IMG/VR virus record: IMGVR_UViG_3300030103_001048
Location: 1 to 48,078 of that record
Length of the DNA: 48,078 nt
Source: a virus
Strand: one strand, 5' to 3'
Position 1 is the stretch's first letter. Each line of letters starts with the position of its first letter. Shown piece after piece: positions 3,139 to 46,624 of this stretch. The notes below the pieces were generated by a model. The model saw only the letters and a program-made list of their open reading frames with translations. It did not search any database and had not been told where the DNA came from. The position numbers and the translations under genes are program-made.

Positions 3139-4601
3139 TAGTAATACTCCCGTTTAGGACGGTACTCGTCGTGTTCATCGTTTTCTCCTTGCAGAGATAT
3201 AAACCCGCCCTGCCGAAAACGCATTAATGCTAACGTCATACTATCACAAAAGTCATCATGATCGCCATTAGGAAATGAAACTACTTCTTCTATAACTTCG
3301 TCAGCAAATTTTTTGTCTATTGGTGCCCATACTACACCTGCTTCGAACAATGGTGCAACCATGTGCATTCTGGTTATTTTATCCTTACCTTTGCCAGGTG
3401 AAAAGCCAAGTGCCGGAATACCGCGTAGCCGCAACTCGTCAATGAGCGGTGTACCCGTCGCTTTCGCTTCGACCACAACCATGTCTGGCTCCCAGTATTC
3501 GTGTTCTTCATACGCCACCTCTTTAAGTTCAGGAAAATTCCACCGCCCTCGCCGTGCGTCCATCAAAATCAGATTATCTGCCCCACCTTCGTCTGGTTCA
3601 AACACGCCCCATGTCGTAATCGCGCTGTAATCGGCGGATTCTTTCTTGGAAAACGCCGTATCGTAGGACTGTATGATGTATTTTACAGGGGGAATCTCTT
3701 CTTTTTCCCACGGTTGCCACCAATCCCGCTTGATAATCGCAGAATCAGAACTTGTTGGCGTTTGTTGCCACTGTGCGTTCCATTTTTGTACAGGCAACGA
3801 CGCTTTGATAGACAACAATGCATCTTTTTCCCAGAACTCAGGCCACAATGGTTCGTCTGACGGCATAATTGCAGGAAATTCCACCACTTCCCACTGATCT
3901 GCCATGACATCACCGCCCTGTGCAGCCATTAAACGGCCTGTCAAGTCCTTTTTTCCCCATCTTGTCATAACAATTATGATCGCACCGCCCGGTTGGAGAC
4001 GCTGACGGGGACCAGAAGTGTACCATTCATACGCATTATCGAACGCACTGTCGCTCATAGCGTCTTGTTCCGAGTGTGGATCGTCAATAACAAACAAATC
4101 CGCACCACGACCAGTAACCGCAGCACCTACACCCGCAGCAAAATACTCGCCACCCTTGTCAGTTTGCCACTTTCCTGCTCCTTTGTTGTCTTCTTTGAGG
4201 TTCGTATCAGGAAAAATCTCTTTATATGCGGGATCATCGATTAAATCTCGCACTTTTCTACCAAATCTAACCGCCAACTCCGTGTTATGAGTGGCCTGAA
4301 TGATTTTCAACTTAGGATTCTTGCCCAAAAACCACGCAGGCATCAGAAAACTAGCGAACTCAGACTTAGAATGACGCGGTGGCATGTTGATAATCAACCG
4401 TTTCAACTTACCTTGCGCCACCTGTTCGAGCTTTTCCGCTATAATTCGGTGGTGCCTACCCTCAATAAAGTTCTCATAAACGTGATGCGCAAAGGGCATG
4501 AAATATTCTTGCGCTTTTTCCCTTAAATCTAATCTTTTCTTAGCCTCAGTCAGTGCTAAGATTTCTTTTAACGCTTCTTCAGGAAGTGTTTGTAGATTCA
4601 T
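3138..4601 (-). CDS. terL: terminase large subunit (TerL)
   Basis: ATP-driven packaging motor and headful or site-specific nuclease. 487 aa, full length. The ATPase domain has a Walker A-type loop MPPRHSKSE (residues about 73-81) and Walker B DLFVIDDP (about 168-175). The C-terminal RNase H-like nuclease domain shows acidic residues in QSYDTAFSKKESADYS (about 311), VVVEAKATG (about 378) and HDDFCDSM (about 449). The stop overlaps the portal ATG, and its own ATG overlaps the stop of the 1555-aa gene (ATGA). The small subunit is not next to it but about 8 kb away at 12699-13268, also on the minus strand. Confidence 0.95.
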   Translation of the reverse strand: MNLQTLPEEALKEILALTEAKKRLDLREKAQEYFMPFAHHVYENFIEGRHHRIIAEKLEQVAQGKLKRLIINMPPRHSKSEFASFLMPAWFLGKNPKLKIIQATHNTELAVRFGRKVRDLIDDPAYKEIFPDTNLKEDNKGAGKWQTDKGGEYFAAGVGAAVTGRGADLFVIDDPHSEQDAMSDSAFDNAYEWYTSGPRQRLQPGGAIIIVMTRWGKKDLTGRLMAAQGGDVMADQWEVVEFPAIMPSDEPLWPEFWEKDALLSIKASLPVQKWNAQWQQTPTSSDSAIIKRDWWQPWEKEEIPPVKYIIQSYDTAFSKKESADYSAITTWGVFEPDEGGADNLILMDARRGRWNFPELKEVAYEEHEYWEPDMVVVEAKATGTPLIDELRLRGIPALGFSPGKGKDKITRMHMVAPLFEAGVVWAPIDKKFADEVIEEVVSFPNGDHDDFCDSMTLALMRFRQGGFISLQGENDEHDEYRPKREYY

Positions 4602-7600
4602 GAGCCATCCATCAAGTTTTCAGAAGGTAACTTCTCGGCCCCCGTGCCTTGAATCTCGGCTAATCTTCTCAAATACTCAAGCTCTGCATTCGGAGCAATG
4701 TACCCATACCCATACTGTGGATTTGCTGTAGGTGCCAAGTAAGACGTTGGATCTGAAAACACTGGACCCGCAGGAACAACCTGAGTAATTCCCGGTTGTG
4801 GTGTGTAAAAAGAGTATTCTCCTGTTTGTTGCGGTTGATAATACGGTGCAACCGTAGGTCTCGCTCCAGATAATCCCGCTATTCCAGACGTGTACCCCGG
4901 ATCTTGTTCACCAACAACGGTATCATCACCTGTTGTTGTGTCATCGTCACCGCCATCGCCACCGCCATCGCCACCAGGTGTGAATGAAGTTGTTGGTATA
5001 AACACTGTTTCGGCACCTGTAAAATTAACCTCTGGTTCTTCAACTGTAGTAACCGTGGTTACTTTGTTGTCCGTGGTAGTCGTATTATCTGTCGTTGTCG
5101 TATTATCTGTCGTTTGTGTGGTTGTTCCGTTTGTATCCGCGCTAATGTTAACTGTTGAGTTTCCATTCGTTACAGAAGTTGAATCTCCCACCGCCACATT
5201 CGTAATCGTATTTTCTCCAGTAACATTATTTGTTGTGCTAACTGTCGCGTTTCCATTTGAGTCTGTTACAGTGACAATTGTAAGATCCCCACTTGTACTG
5301 GTGCTTGAATCTCCAACAAGTGTTAGATTTCCAGTTGGCGTACCATCACCAGTACCACCACCTTGTATCACTCCTGTAATCCCTGTTCCCGAAACATCAA
5401 CACCAGAAACATCATCTGTACCTGTAGCAGCAAACACAGCTTGTTCATCATCACCTACAACCGTTAAATCAGCCGCACTCGTTGGAATAGTGTCTTGGTC
5501 AATAATTATATTTAAATCCCCAATTAAACTTTCATCAAAGACCACCACGCTGTTTGGGTCGCCCGACTGACCTGCGCCCGTGTCCGCAACCCCTAGAACC
5601 CCTGTAAATCCTGCATCAGTAAGAATATTTTTTAAGTTTTGTGTGTCTCCGTCCTGTTCACTTTCAAGAACCAACCCTTGATCATCTGTAGCTAAAGGGT
5701 TCTTAATGTTTTCTGAAATCAAGTTTACATTCTGGAACACGTCTGTTGGGTTTGTCGTGTCTATAACTCTGGTAACAGTCCTATCTGCTACACTTTCTCC
5801 TGCAAAAGAAGACCTACGAACATACGAAACTGTTATGTTGCCTGTCCCACCATTCCATTCAACATTGAGGTTGTTACCCTCACTGTCCGTTCTTGAAGAC
5901 AAGGAGTTAACCAATCCGTTGACTTGATTCAACGTTAGCTCTTTGTTGTTTTTTGCATCCAACATGTTCGACGTATCGATCTCAGCACTCATCAAGCTTC
6001 CTTCACCACCAACATAGTCAGAAGGATAGGTTGTATCCAACGACCCGTAGAAACCAGGACCAAATGCTCCCATATTGGAATAGTAATTATCGCCTTTCGT
6101 AGGATCAAACTGTGTAAATGGCTCACCTTTCGTAGCGTGGTAAACCGTTATAAGTTCAGAGGTGTCCGCATCGTCACCACCATTAAGTAAACTTTCTCCC
6201 CCACCTATAGTGGCATCAGAAACATCATCTGTACCTGTGGCTTTTAAAACTTCTGTGTCATCTACGTCGTCTACGTCGTCACCATTAAGTAAACTTTCCC
6301 CTCCACCTACAGTAACCTCAGAACCAGGACTTAACGTACTAACATTCACAGTGTTCGAGTTGTTTGTATTCGTACTGTCCACAAACACACTGGTGTTAGC
6401 CCCCACACTAACAACGTTAACATTTCCATTTGAAACATTCGTAGTTTTTGAAGTGTTCGTATTTTTATTCGTAACCGTAACCGAAGTGTTTCCGTTCGCA
6501 TCCACCGCTGTATCCACGAGATAAACAACACCGTTACTGTCCGTAACCTCGTTGCTTTCAATCGTATTCAATCCTTGTGCAGCAATCAGATCCGTCGCTG
6601 CGTCTGCATTTGGGTTGTTCGCATCAGATCCTATTGCACCTGCACCTTGAGTACTTGCCCCAACATCTACATTACCCGCTGCGTTAGCAGTCAAAGCAGC
6701 CCCACCTGCTGCGCCTGTCGCTCCAAACATTTCAGACCATGCTGCGTTAAACGTACCGTTTAATAAATCGGCACCATAATCTTCAGGGTTCAATCCTTCT
6801 GCTTTCATGGCAGAGATAATCGCTTGGTTCACACCCGCTTGCTCTGCACCACCCGCAACAAACTCGCTTCCAAGAATCCCTGCAACCCTCGTTAAAACTT
6901 TAGGCATAGCTTTTATAAGAATCTTTGGAGCACCCAAAGCTAGTCCCGCTGTCATCGTGTCAACAACACCACCTGCTAAACCAGATGTGTAAAAACCCTG
7001 TGTCATAGCAGATTGTTTGAGTTCGTTAAATTCTTGGTCCGATAGACTTGCAAAAGCTGTGTCACGAAGAGCATCCATCTCCGCTGCAACGTCATTTGAT
7101 GCAGCAGCCCCTGCCTCCGCTACGTTTTGCTGCAAGGCTAAAGGAACACCAATCACAGGATTTAAAGCCAACGCTGCAACGTCTATCCCTAAACCCCCAA
7201 GTTCTTGAATAGCCGTATCCGCCATCCATAGGCTAGGGTCCGTGATCCTACGACCATCAACCGTGTAACCCGGATTATTTGGATCAGGCATACCATTCAG
7301 AACTGCTTGTTTGTACTCATCCGACTGCAACGCAAAAGCACCATCAGACTTTTCGTTTAAATAATCTACAACTCCAGAAAGACCTTCGCTTACAGCAGTA
7401 ACATTTACTTTGTCTCGAACCTTGCCATCTAAATCAACTGTGACTAACTCGCCTGTTGCAGGGTCAATAAGCTCATACTGATCGAAATTGTATGAAGCTA
7501 AGATACTCAAAGCATCATCAGCCATCTTCCCAGTGCCTTGTGTCCGAAGAGCAAGCTCCTCAAGAAAGCCACCTACACCTGAATAACCAAGTCCCGCAGC

Positions 7601-16839: not shown

Positions 16840-17029
16840 AATAACGTGTGAGGGCATGGTCAGCAGGACCATTTATGTTGATGACGCTTCTAGTTTAGAG
16901 GACGCAATCAACTATGCTCGAAGAGAGTTTTCGCTCCTTGTGGGTGCGAGAGAAGAGGATGTCGAAATAGCTGACATCTATAGTGAACCAGTAAAATTAA
17001 AGGAGGTGAGTAATGAACCAGAAAGTTAG
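16826..17029 (+). CDS. early hypothetical protein (67 aa)
   Basis: Excellent ribosome binding site aaggaggt before ATG 16826 (an in-frame GTG at 16823 is closer). Predicted beta-alpha-beta fold (AYEITCEGMVSRTIYVDDA; EDAINYARREF). The 3' end overlaps the next gene. Unrecognised. Confidence 0.6.
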   Translation: MKAYEITCEGMVSRTIYVDDASSLEDAINYARREFSLLVGAREEDVEIADIYSEPVKLKEVSNEPES

Positions 17030-17525
17030 TCTAGTAAGTTTAGCGGTGGAGAAAGCGTGGTCAAATGCTGCCAATGCAACCGAAGCCAAGGACAGGTATC
17101 TCGAGATGTTGAAGACGGATGAAGCATTGCGGACGGAGGCAACGGCTCGATACCTAGAGAAGATCGCACGTTGGGATACAGTTGTACGTCCTAAATTAGA
17201 TCGTGCCATGTTCAAGAGGCACGTTCTGAGCAAGGGTCAGACATCGACACCGAATGTATCGCGCAAGAATACGATGAAGATGTACGCGAAAGATTTGTTT
17301 GAGACACTCAGGTTGCCGGAGACAGGTGTTAAACTTGGGCAAGCAACGCGTCAGGACTTGGACAAGGCTATCTCGTTTGAGAAGTCTAGGGCGCAGCACC
17401 ACACGCACCAACAGAGTTTTTGGTCTTCAATACAGAAGCGTCTTAAAAAAGACGATGCAATGGTCAAGGATGTTTGGACACCAGTAGAGATAGAGCAGAC
17501 ATACGAGGAGATATTGAACAAATGA
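17013..17525 (+). CDS. helical protein upstream of the TIGR-like array (170 aa)
   Basis: Basic, helix-rich protein of unknown family (SLAVEKAWSNAANATEAK; ATARYLEKIARWDTVVRPK; QQSFWSSIQKRLKKDDAMV), preceded by aaggaggtg. Its TGA stop overlaps the first base pairs of the repeat array, so the array lies in its 3' untranslated region and is probably co-transcribed. It could be functionally linked to the array or just be the upstream operon gene; the sequence does not decide. Confidence 0.6.
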   Translation: MNQKVSLVSLAVEKAWSNAANATEAKDRYLEMLKTDEALRTEATARYLEKIARWDTVVRPKLDRAMFKRHVLSKGQTSTPNVSRKNTMKMYAKDLFETLRLPETGVKLGQATRQDLDKAISFEKSRAQHHTHQQSFWSSIQKRLKKDDAMVKDVWTPVEIEQTYEEILNK

Positions 17526-18148
17526 TTAGTTATGGGAGCCGTCATGACTGCGCAGTAATGCCTATGGAGGACCGCTCCCACCAGTTAGGGGAGGGTCATC
17601 AATGCGGCGCAGCAATGCCCCCTTTCGGGCACCCTTCCCGATCAGTTTATGGAGGCCAAAAATCCGCCACAGGAACGTCACCCCGACACCGCCTCCACCA
17701 GTTAGGGGAGGGTCAAGCTATCGGCGCAGCAATGCCATTAGAGATCTGCCCTTCCCGATCAGTTTATGGGAGCCAGTCGCGTTACGCAGCAATGCCCTGC
17801 AACCAATTGCTCCCACCAGTTAGGGGAGGGTCACGAAGCCGTCGCAGCAATGCCCCTGTGAACACACCCTCCTCGATTAGTTTTACGGAGGCCAAAAATC
17901 CTCCACAGGATCGTCACACCGACACCGCCTCCACCAATTTACGAGAGGTCAGCTTCGATTCGCAGAAATGCCATTTATCGAACGCCTCTCAAGGGAAGGG
18001 TCAATTAACCATCACAGGAATGTCATAAGGAGAACACCCTTCCACCAGTTTTGGGCCACTCTTCTAACTCCGAAAGGACAAGACGCCGCCGCCCAATTTC
18101 ACCAGAGGCCAACATAAAAACGCAGCAATGCCAAAAGGAACCCGCCTC
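17524..18148 (+). repeat. TIGR-like array: 11 tandem dual-spacer guide-RNA units
   Basis: Eleven units begin at 17533, 17588, 17650, 17705, 17767, 17823, 17887, 17943, 17993, 18051 and 18105 (mean pitch about 57 nt). Each unit is: right arm of an outer stem ending GGTCA or GGCCA; exactly 9 variable nt; loop repeat CGCAGCAATGCC or variant (mini-stem closing a GNRA-type loop); 11-12 variable nt; complementary arm; linker such as CCAGTTA or GATCAGTTTAT. Outer stems change by compensation: TGGGAGC/GCTCCCA, GGGGAGGG/CCCTTCCC, GGAGGC/GCCTCC, GAGAGG/CCTCTC, GGAAGGG/CCCTTCC, TTGGGC/GCCCAA. The edge-spacer-loop-spacer-edge order matches TIGR arrays, whose processed tigRNAs are 36 nt (9+12+9 plus edges fits). 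It lies directly upstream of the Tas-like gene, same strand. Confidence 0.85.
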
Positions 18149-18167
18149 GCAACCAAGGAGATCCAAT

Positions 18168-18905
18168 ATGGATACAAGATATGAAGACCCGACTATCGCA
18201 CAAATAAACTACTACTGGCGTGACCGCCAGAACATGGTACGAGCCGACACCAAACTGGTGTTGCAGATTAAAGCCATGTGCCGATCTTTACGAGACGGTG
18301 ACAAGAAAGAAGGTGATAAGTTCTACAAAGAACTAAGCACTGGTCAGGCTACACTGATCGAATACTCACAGTTCAATGCGTTGTTCGAGGCACGTAAGCC
18401 AATACTGCAAGAGCGTAAGCGTCTTGAAAAACAACTAGCCAACTATGCCAAGATACTGCCTGTCTCAACTTTTGTAGACAAGGTAAAAGGTTTCGGGCAT
18501 CTTGGTCTTGCAGCCACTGTTGGAGAGATAGGCGACTTCATGGCCTATGACAAAGAACTTGACGGAATATACAAACGTGCAGGACTTGCCGTTATTGAAG
18601 GTGAGCGTCAACGCAAACACTCCAACAAAGACATGGCTATACTGCATGGCTACAGTCCATCAAGACACGCTGTATTCTGGACAATCGGAGACAGTTTGTT
18701 GAAAGCCCAAGGAAAAGAAGAGAACGCAGGTCCATACAGACAAATCTATGACACTCGAAAGTTGATGGAACGTGAGAGAGTTGAGACGGACGGACACGCC
18801 CACAACAGGGCACTGCGGTACATGACTAAACGACTGATTAAAGATCTATACATAGAATGGAAAGGAGTATCTGATGATCAAGGAGTTCTGGAAACGATTA
18901 ACTAG
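18168..18905 (+). CDS. Tas-like protein: coiled coil plus IS110/Nop-type RNA-binding domain (245 aa)
   Basis: Start at 18168 after aaggag; the frame is open further upstream but would enter the repeat array. Residues about 20-95 are a charged helical, probably coiled-coil segment (ARKPILQERKRLEKQLANYA). From about 106 the sequence KVKGFGHLGLAATVGEIGDF, then YKRAGLAVIEGERQR, and later RYMTKRLIKDLYIEW match the Transposase_20 domain of IS110 recombinases, structurally related to the Nop domain of box C/D snoRNPs and Tas proteins. No N-terminal DEDD/RuvC domain and no HNH, so no nuclease. Immediately follows the 11-unit array. By family knowledge it should bind processed guide RNA and use it to bind DNA; without a nuclease it may act as a roadblock or repressor. 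An IS110 remnant is the alternative. Confidence 0.75.
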   Translation: MDTRYEDPTIAQINYYWRDRQNMVRADTKLVLQIKAMCRSLRDGDKKEGDKFYKELSTGQATLIEYSQFNALFEARKPILQERKRLEKQLANYAKILPVSTFVDKVKGFGHLGLAATVGEIGDFMAYDKELDGIYKRAGLAVIEGERQRKHSNKDMAILHGYSPSRHAVFWTIGDSLLKAQGKEENAGPYRQIYDTRKLMERERVETDGHAHNRALRYMTKRLIKDLYIEWKGVSDDQGVLETIN

Positions 18906-19116
18906 CAAGCAGCAAACTAATCAGAAGCTGTCACGCAAGGAGCAGATCCTTGCTGAGTTGGAGAGAGGTCAGGGAACCGCGAGGCAACTATCGGATCGCA
19001 TGGGTTTGAAGCTCTCGATCATTCGACCACAACTATCGGCGCTGCACAACAAAGGATTAATTCGTGACACGAATGTAGATGCAGGGGCCGAGGGCGTATG
19101 GGAGGTGGTCAAATAG
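18874..19116 (+). CDS. winged-helix DNA-binding protein (80 aa)
   Basis: Begins inside the end of the Tas-like gene (32-nt overlap, ribosome binding site aaaggag). After a basic N-terminus, LSRKEQILAELERGQGTARQ then LSDRMGLKLSIIRPQLSALH and NKGLIRDT form the helix-turn-helix and wing of a MarR/IclR-like winged helix. Probably a transcription regulator or a partner of the Tas-like protein. The overlap implies coupled translation. Confidence 0.7.
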   Translation: MIKEFWKRLTSKQQTNQKLSRKEQILAELERGQGTARQLSDRMGLKLSIIRPQLSALHNKGLIRDTNVDAGAEGVWEVVK

Positions 19117-46333: not shown

Positions 46334-46624
46334 TTAGAAGATTCCTTTGAATCCTGAGCCTGAAACCTGCGCTCCACCAACTCTACCGCCTTTAGCCATT
46401 CCCTTGGGCTTGACCTTACCGCCATTCTTCATCCCTTTGGGCTTGACCTTACCGCCATTCTTCATCCCTTTGGGCTTGACCTTGCCACCGTTTTTCATCC
46501 CCTTGGGCTTGACCTTACCGCCATTCTTCATTCCCTTGGGCTTGACCTTACCGCCATTCTTCATTCCCTTGGGTTTTACTTTGCCACCGTTACGATAGCC
46601 TTTCTTCTTCTTTTTCATAGCCAT
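46334..46624 (-). CDS. basic repeat protein (96 aa)
   Basis: Start at 46624 (aaggag upstream; an upstream in-frame ATG would include the site). After MAMKKKKKGYRNGG there are six copies of the 11-residue repeat GGKVKPKGMKN, then GGRVGGAQVSGSGFKG. Very basic and probably disordered, presumably binding DNA or packaged in the capsid. The underlying DNA is a 33-bp tandem repeat whose copy number could change by slippage. Confidence 0.7.
   Translation of the reverse strand: MAMKKKKKGYRNGGKVKPKGMKNGGKVKPKGMKNGGKVKPKGMKNGGKVKPKGMKNGGKVKPKGMKNGGKVKPKGMAKGGRVGGAQVSGSGFKGIF
46396..46593. repeat. 33-bp tandem repeat (six copies)
   Basis: Six near-identical 33-bp units encoding GGKVKPKGMKN. Differences are mostly synonymous (ttgggc/ttgggt, accgcc/gccacc), so the protein repeat is older than the last expansion. 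Lies wholly inside the 46334-46624 gene. Confidence 0.8.

Follow-up and report, generated by a model that had tools for sequence, protein, structure and literature searches.

What can a phage address with an array of short paired guides when the protein encoded beside them has no nuclease domain? The question is raised by a locus in IMG/VR virus record IMGVR_UViG_3300030103_001048, of which the 48,078 bp analysed here (GC content 46%) are referred to as the window. The source of the window is a marine tailed phage; its packaging, DNA polymerase and structural genes have their nearest counterparts in 023Pt_psg01, Pelagibacter phages HTVC023P/027P and the gammaproteobacterial phage DSL-LC04, at protein identities of up to about 60%. 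Judged by sequence, the locus is securely assigned to the tandem interspaced guide RNA (TIGR)-Tas systems, stem-loop type, TasA sub-type, and two of its eleven guides exactly fit a stretch of tRNA-Phe genes that is probably their real target. The locus is laid out as follows:

17013..17525, plus strand: partner gene candidate, 170 aa, ending where the array starts, with homologs in the same place in related loci that have enough upstream sequence
17533..18148, plus strand: stem-loop TIGR array of 11 dual-spacer hairpin units, each built as stem-CA-N9-C-10-nt loop-CA-N9-C-stem, the first A not being invariant
18168..18905, plus strand: tasA, 245 aa, with a Nop/IS110-type C-terminal domain and without a nuclease domain

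The array ends 19 nt before the tasA start codon. A strict geometry, defined by a 5-bp stem, fixed distances and the loop closing pairs, was found 11 times in the array region, whereas 2000 first-order Markov shuffles averaged 0.04 hits and never exceeded 1, bearing out an earlier note on this DNA that had described 11 tandem plus-strand units beside a 245-aa protein (open reading frame 18168-18905). Counted from the stems, the frame is stem-C-11-loop(10)-C-11-stem in 10 of the 11 units, the exception being unit 5, whose B side is 12 nt long; the asymmetry of 9 versus 11-12 variable nucleotides noted earlier is thus an artefact of frame placement. In both 11-mers position 1 is A in 80-83% and position 11 is C in 87-95% of cases while positions 2-10 are free, which defines two 9-nt spacers, A and B, per unit:

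17533..17580, plus strand: unit 1, A TCATGACTG, B ATGGAGGAC
17588..17639, plus strand: unit 2, A TCAATGCGG, B CCTTTCGGG
17650..17697, plus strand: unit 3, A AAAATCCGC, B CCCCGACAC; A followed by the reverse complement (rc) of B gives AAAATCCGCGTGTCGGGG, found exactly in tRNA-Phe genes of IMG/VR contigs
17705..17756, plus strand: unit 4, A AGCTATCGG, B TTAGAGATC
17767..17815, plus strand: unit 5, A GTCGCGTTA, B TGCAACCAA, with the 12-nt B side
17823..17874, plus strand: unit 6, A CGAAGCCGT, B CTGTGAACA
17887..17932, plus strand: unit 7, A AAAATCCTC, B CACCGACAC; A + rc(B) gives AAAATCCTCGTGTCGGTG, found exactly in many bacterial tRNA-Phe genes, including those of SAR116
17943..17990, plus strand: unit 8, A GCTTCGATT, B TTTATCGAA
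17994..18043, plus strand: unit 9, A ATTAACCAT, B TAAGGAGAA
18051..18096, plus strand: unit 10, A CTCTTCTAA, B AGACGCCGC, with the divergent loop TCCGAAAGGA
18105..18148, plus strand: unit 11, the last, A ACATAAAAA, B AAAGGAACC, with a GAGGC/GCCTC stem

The ends of each unit form an inverted repeat of 5-9 bp whose arms covary between units (GGGAGC/GCTCCC, GGGGAGGGT/ACCCTTCCC, GGAGGC/GCCTCC, TTGGGC/GCCCAA and others), so that the stems of the window vary from unit to unit and pair in every one. Gathering units by the loop motif alone from the window and 48 related loci gave 289 distinct sequences: 91-94% of them form stem pairs 1-5, the Watson-Crick share is higher than in any of 1000 column shuffles, and the pair that closes the loop alternates between G-C and A-U. 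Two TIGR array architectures, dual-repeat and stem-loop, were described by Faure et al. 2025 (PMC12045711), the latter being a tandem series of stem-loops whose stems are palindromic and whose two spacers, 8-12 nt each, sit between box motifs; together with a TasA it was shown to be processed into single hairpins. A dual-repeat array with a conserved edge repeat, as the earlier note had read it, is ruled out by the covarying stems; the loop is near-constant, there is no constant edge repeat, and the products of about 36 nt that were predicted with that reading are not expected from a stem-loop array. No single constant repeat of 25-36 nt lies between the spacers, as it would in CRISPR, and the array region has no Rfam match.

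The identity of the 245-aa protein follows from its C-terminal part. It matches the solved TasR structure (PDB 9mty; 1e-11, and 1.2e-11 by profile) in the C-terminal Nop/IS110 part of TasR only, and the NCBIfam model TIGR_Tas_endo (NF052498) at 1.8e-21 with 77 bits, under the model cut-off of 100. No HNH, RuvC or other nuclease family was found in it. Considering that the C-terminal Nop/IS110 part alone is present, without a nuclease domain, we assign it as TasA, so that the proposal of a nuclease-less Tas with its own array holds. An AlphaFold model of low confidence (predicted local distance difference test, pLDDT, 59) matches TasH best among PDB folds, followed by an IS110-family recombinase, neither being significant alone. 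A search of genome contigs for TasA found none.

The domain shared with IS110 (IS110 model 1.4e-5; PHROG 'transposase' 2.7e-15) could also stem from an IS110 element that has degenerated and kept parts of its bridge RNA, since IS110 recombinases have the homologous C-terminal domain and their bridge RNA carries two guides per loop. The window locus differs in having many separate hairpins, eleven in all, no element ends are seen, the N-terminal catalytic (DEDD/RuvC) domain is absent, TIGR_Tas_endo scores far better than the IS110 model, and the partner gene and layout are kept in all relatives. We regard such a remnant as extremely improbable.

If the locus is a stem-loop TIGR-TasA system, its spacers should point to its targets. 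Two-strand targeting has been described for TIGR-Tas, TasR cuts leave 8-nt 3' overhangs, and a 'C - 5' rule was given (PMC12045711). From these overhangs and this rule we deduced that the top strand of a target reads spacer A followed directly by rc(B). Scanning IMG/VR with unit 3 in this arrangement (A + rc(B), gap 0-3) gave 7 hits, 5 of them with gap 0; four of these lie in tRNA-Phe genes of near-identical contigs and one in a 3' fragment of a tRNA (ARAGORN). Spacer A covers tRNA positions 35-43 and spacer B positions 44-52. Among 32 arrangements compared with 266 tRNA genes, a set that is not independent, being enriched in tRNA-Phe genes fetched by a unit-derived pattern, 18/18 matches arose solely for A + rc(B) at gap 0; they came from three sister units, with a fourth reaching 16/18, and permuted A/B pairings gave 0.06 on average. 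The exact matches belong to window unit 3 (shared with the close relative L003), window unit 7 and a unit of the close relative L002; the 16/18 unit occurs in L036/L041. The three exact ones differ from each other solely where natural tRNA-Phe genes differ, and their loops differ more.

A chance resemblance, with the array addressing only fast-changing rivals that we do not know, has to be weighed against this. Of some 180 unit lineages a single one leads to a tRNA, IMG/VR was scanned with five units, and no further unit matches tRNA or rRNA (E. coli rRNA holds no unit targets). A coincidence would nevertheless have to produce 18/18 in the single predicted geometry, and three sister variants that all fit natural tRNA-Phe variants while their loops diverge more, and we consider it unlikely. 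The tRNA-Phe match is probably a real target of the two guides.

The guides might instead act on RNA, by pairing with tRNA or mRNA in the manner of box C/D guide RNAs. Two spacers between paired box motifs together with a Nop-type protein recall the box C/D small nucleolar ribonucleoproteins (Nop5), in which a protein of Nop-type fold likewise goes with guides paired between box motifs, and the reassortment of single spacers described below would suit independent halves. The array region differs in its lack of an Rfam match and in the DNA-type two-strand geometry of the tRNA-Phe match: with one half on each strand, B alone could pair with the tRNA. TasR showed no action on RNA substrates (PMC12045711), and no fibrillarin-like gene turned up among the annotated open reading frames, for which no systematic search was made. 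Taken together, an RNA target appears very unlikely.

The exact tRNA-Phe site is present in 18 of 67 sampled alphaproteobacterial genomes (one of them being the pattern-selected centre of the sample), compared with none for a reversed-pattern control on either strand. In two alphaproteobacterial genomes it occurs twice, within direct repeats of 60 bp and 47 bp that bound stretches of 34 kb and 11 kb, respectively. Both stretches hold a tyrosine integrase gene, which in one of them lies 95 bp away from the repeat. This duplication around integrase-bearing stretches indicates that the site lies within an attachment-site core common to integrative elements and the chromosome.

These observations suggest how the system may work. 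The array would be co-transcribed with tas and cut between the hairpins, each hairpin would be held by a TasA dimer, as can be surmised from TasR, and the two 9-nt spacers would read both strands of one contiguous 18-bp site. The TasA-RNA complex might then open and bend the DNA without cutting it. Because TasA has no nuclease, it is most likely an RNA-guided roadblock, and we are fairly confident that TasA and its guides constitute an RNA-guided, non-cutting DNA binder. The array would serve as a fast-changing list of sites outside the phage, with 2 of the 11 guides aimed at the tRNA-Phe stretch that forms the attachment-site core of integrating elements. The likeliest job of these two guides would be to block either the integration or excision of rival elements there or transcription of the tRNA gene. 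Integration control at the tRNA-Phe site as the purpose is a tentative proposal. The fuller model, a two-protein stem-loop TIGR system of partner, array and TasA whose guides stop integrative elements from entering or leaving the tRNA-Phe attachment core, is rather doubtful as a whole. A possible role in competition between mobile elements, already suggested in the earlier note, gains some support from the attachment-site matches.

Host take-over would explain the same match differently, with guides silencing host genes by a transcription block during infection, tRNA-Phe for two units and ribosome-binding or start regions for others. The exact site is indeed the tRNA-Phe gene itself. In units 1, 9 and 11 (17533-17580, 17994-18043, 18105-18148), moreover, B + rc(A) resembles a Shine-Dalgarno sequence followed by an ATG start, e.g. 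TAAGGAGAAATGGTTAAT. Over all units this reading yields 5 cases versus 2.3 in permuted pairs (p ~0.06), which is weak as a statistic; as 18-mers, units 9 and 11 are absent from IMG/VR, unit 9 is also absent from 385 alphaproteobacteria and unit 1 from 369 gammaproteobacteria, and the fast turnover of the array would be unexpected for guides against conserved host genes. We rate this explanation as somewhat unlikely.

Several points weigh against the system and targets as we propose them. The TasA score falls below the NCBIfam cut-off, the 266-gene set was partly recruited with a unit-derived pattern, and the tRNA match stems from a single lineage. The contiguous two-strand geometry is exact in the case of units 3 and 7; none of the remaining nine units yielded a target, in the genomes of these phages and their relatives or, for units 1, 9 and 11, in the sampled collections. 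Finally, exchange of single spacers would break paired targets unless new pairs were selected.

The search for other targets covered 29 contigs (0.74 Mb), 80 terminase-relative loci, and six rhizobial-type contigs plus phage RHph_X2_25, and yielded no self-targets or related-phage targets above permuted pairings. Two 17/18 hits at gap 2 were lost in a non-redundant permutation test. Scanning IMG/VR with the TTGTTACCA/ATCATAGAT unit returned unrelated matches alone, at gaps 1-4, and unit 1 gave a single gap-0 hit in the start of a phage gene, at chance level.

How the array changes can be followed among its relatives. One scan recovered 53 viral loci and a profile scan more distant ones, with identities down to 30%; the layout recurs in about 60 related phage contigs. 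The distant relatives include rhizobial-type phage contigs and prophages, with which the isolated phage RHph_X2_25 groups, and their unit reads stem-CA-N9-C-G....C-CA-N9-C-stem, with a 6-nt loop and stems of up to 12 bp. RHph_X2_25 infects Sinorhizobium americanum and has a TasA, partner gene and hairpins of the same kind. In the main marine group the Tas proteins are 69-100% identical, but conservation does not extend to the arrays: loci whose tas genes are 97-99.5% identical in nucleotides (ungapped and approximate) have on average 26% of their units in common, and the order of shared units differs among relatives. The units are thus hypervariable, the opposite of the invariance that had been named as speaking against guide function. 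In addition, pairs of units with one near-exact spacer and the other unrelated number 15 for A only and 11 for B only, compared with 4.2 and 3.4 in column shuffles, indicating that spacers are also exchanged singly between units, as if by recombination in the loop.

The upstream partner gene, missed in the earlier note, has a homolog immediately before the array in every related locus that extends far enough, marine and distant rhizobial alike. The marine partner profile finds L404 (2.8e-11) and L407 (0.0045) among the distant loci, the rhizobial profile finds L410 (3.8e-4) and L407 (0.0058), and the two profiles align with P = 2.9e-4. The 170-aa protein has no Pfam match and no significant match in PHROG, NCBIfam or PADLOC. 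Among 50,697 phage records the rhizobial version occurs in 1, the sole record that also has this TasA, and the marine version in 0. Its predicted structure is mostly helical (pLDDT 81) and has no match in the PDB; among viral proteins there are two fold-level matches, Q854P2 (uncharacterised, from mycobacteriophage Omega) and A0A2U8UKM3, with a probability of 0.99-1.00 and E of 0.008-0.02. The gene is previously undescribed, and we propose that its product is a component of the system in this TasA clade.

The closest described system is the stem-loop TIGR-TasA of a Peromyscus leucopus gut contig (PMC12045711), which has the same solo Nop-domain Tas, hairpins with variable palindromic stems, two short spacers and no nuclease. 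The window phage differs from it in strict 9+9 spacers, a fixed loop length, an array in the tas leader, the upstream partner and the tRNA-Phe target candidate. Dual-repeat TIGR systems with TasR, TasH or TasA (PMC12045711) likewise flank their two spacers, each of about 9 nt, with box motifs (CA / CCA), and their two-strand geometry fits units 3 and 7; the window array has variable covarying stems in place of a constant edge repeat, and no nuclease. The stem-loop TIGR-TasA kind is therefore already known, and what is new is the layout shared by about 60 contigs with its fast turnover, the upstream partner gene and the tRNA-Phe matches. What TIGR systems do in nature, and against which targets, was left open in the founding paper (PMC12045711), above all for nuclease-less TasA, and the tRNA-Phe site would be among the first natural targets proposed for a system of the TIGR-TasA type. 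A conserved guide with an exact fit to a tRNA-Phe integration site, in the geometry expected from biochemistry, offers a concrete and cheap test; if the integration-control reading is true, it would amount to RNA-guided, nuclease-free policing of a chromosomal integration site. Fast turnover, single-spacer swapping and the partner gene are relevant to the way such arrays evolve and to the question whether the system is a single-protein one.

With respect to the phage itself, no integrase was found among the window open reading frames scanned, and no attP resembling the 3' part of tRNA-Phe was found in the window with fewer than 8/24 mismatches. Terminase comparison in 369 and 385 genomes gave, as best matches for a host, merely 42-45% identity.

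Further observations concern the array and its surroundings. The last hairpin (window positions 18105-18167 and the same place in relatives) has the stem GAGGC/GCCTC in most relatives, with the tas ribosome-binding site directly 3' of it; it is possible that this hairpin is a leader for self-regulation by TasA. In L413, L415 and L071, hairpin units overlap an N-terminal extension of the annotated or open tas frame (in L071, units at 3814 and 3869 lie inside the coding sequence 3746-4801), and because of such overlap the tas start codon of RHph_X2_25 was probably set too early. In rhizobial-type phages the main array is not the only place with hairpins: extra units either follow the partner gene closely or lie on its far side, where they form sub-arrays (L411:1153-1653, L412:1542-1664, L415:1791-1981). 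Downstream, an 80-aa winged-helix (ArsR/FaeA-like) protein at window positions 18874-19116 overlaps the end of tas and is present only in the closest relatives, L002 and L003. In the late region, a 33-nt repeat occurs in five to six tandem copies at window positions 46397-46591.
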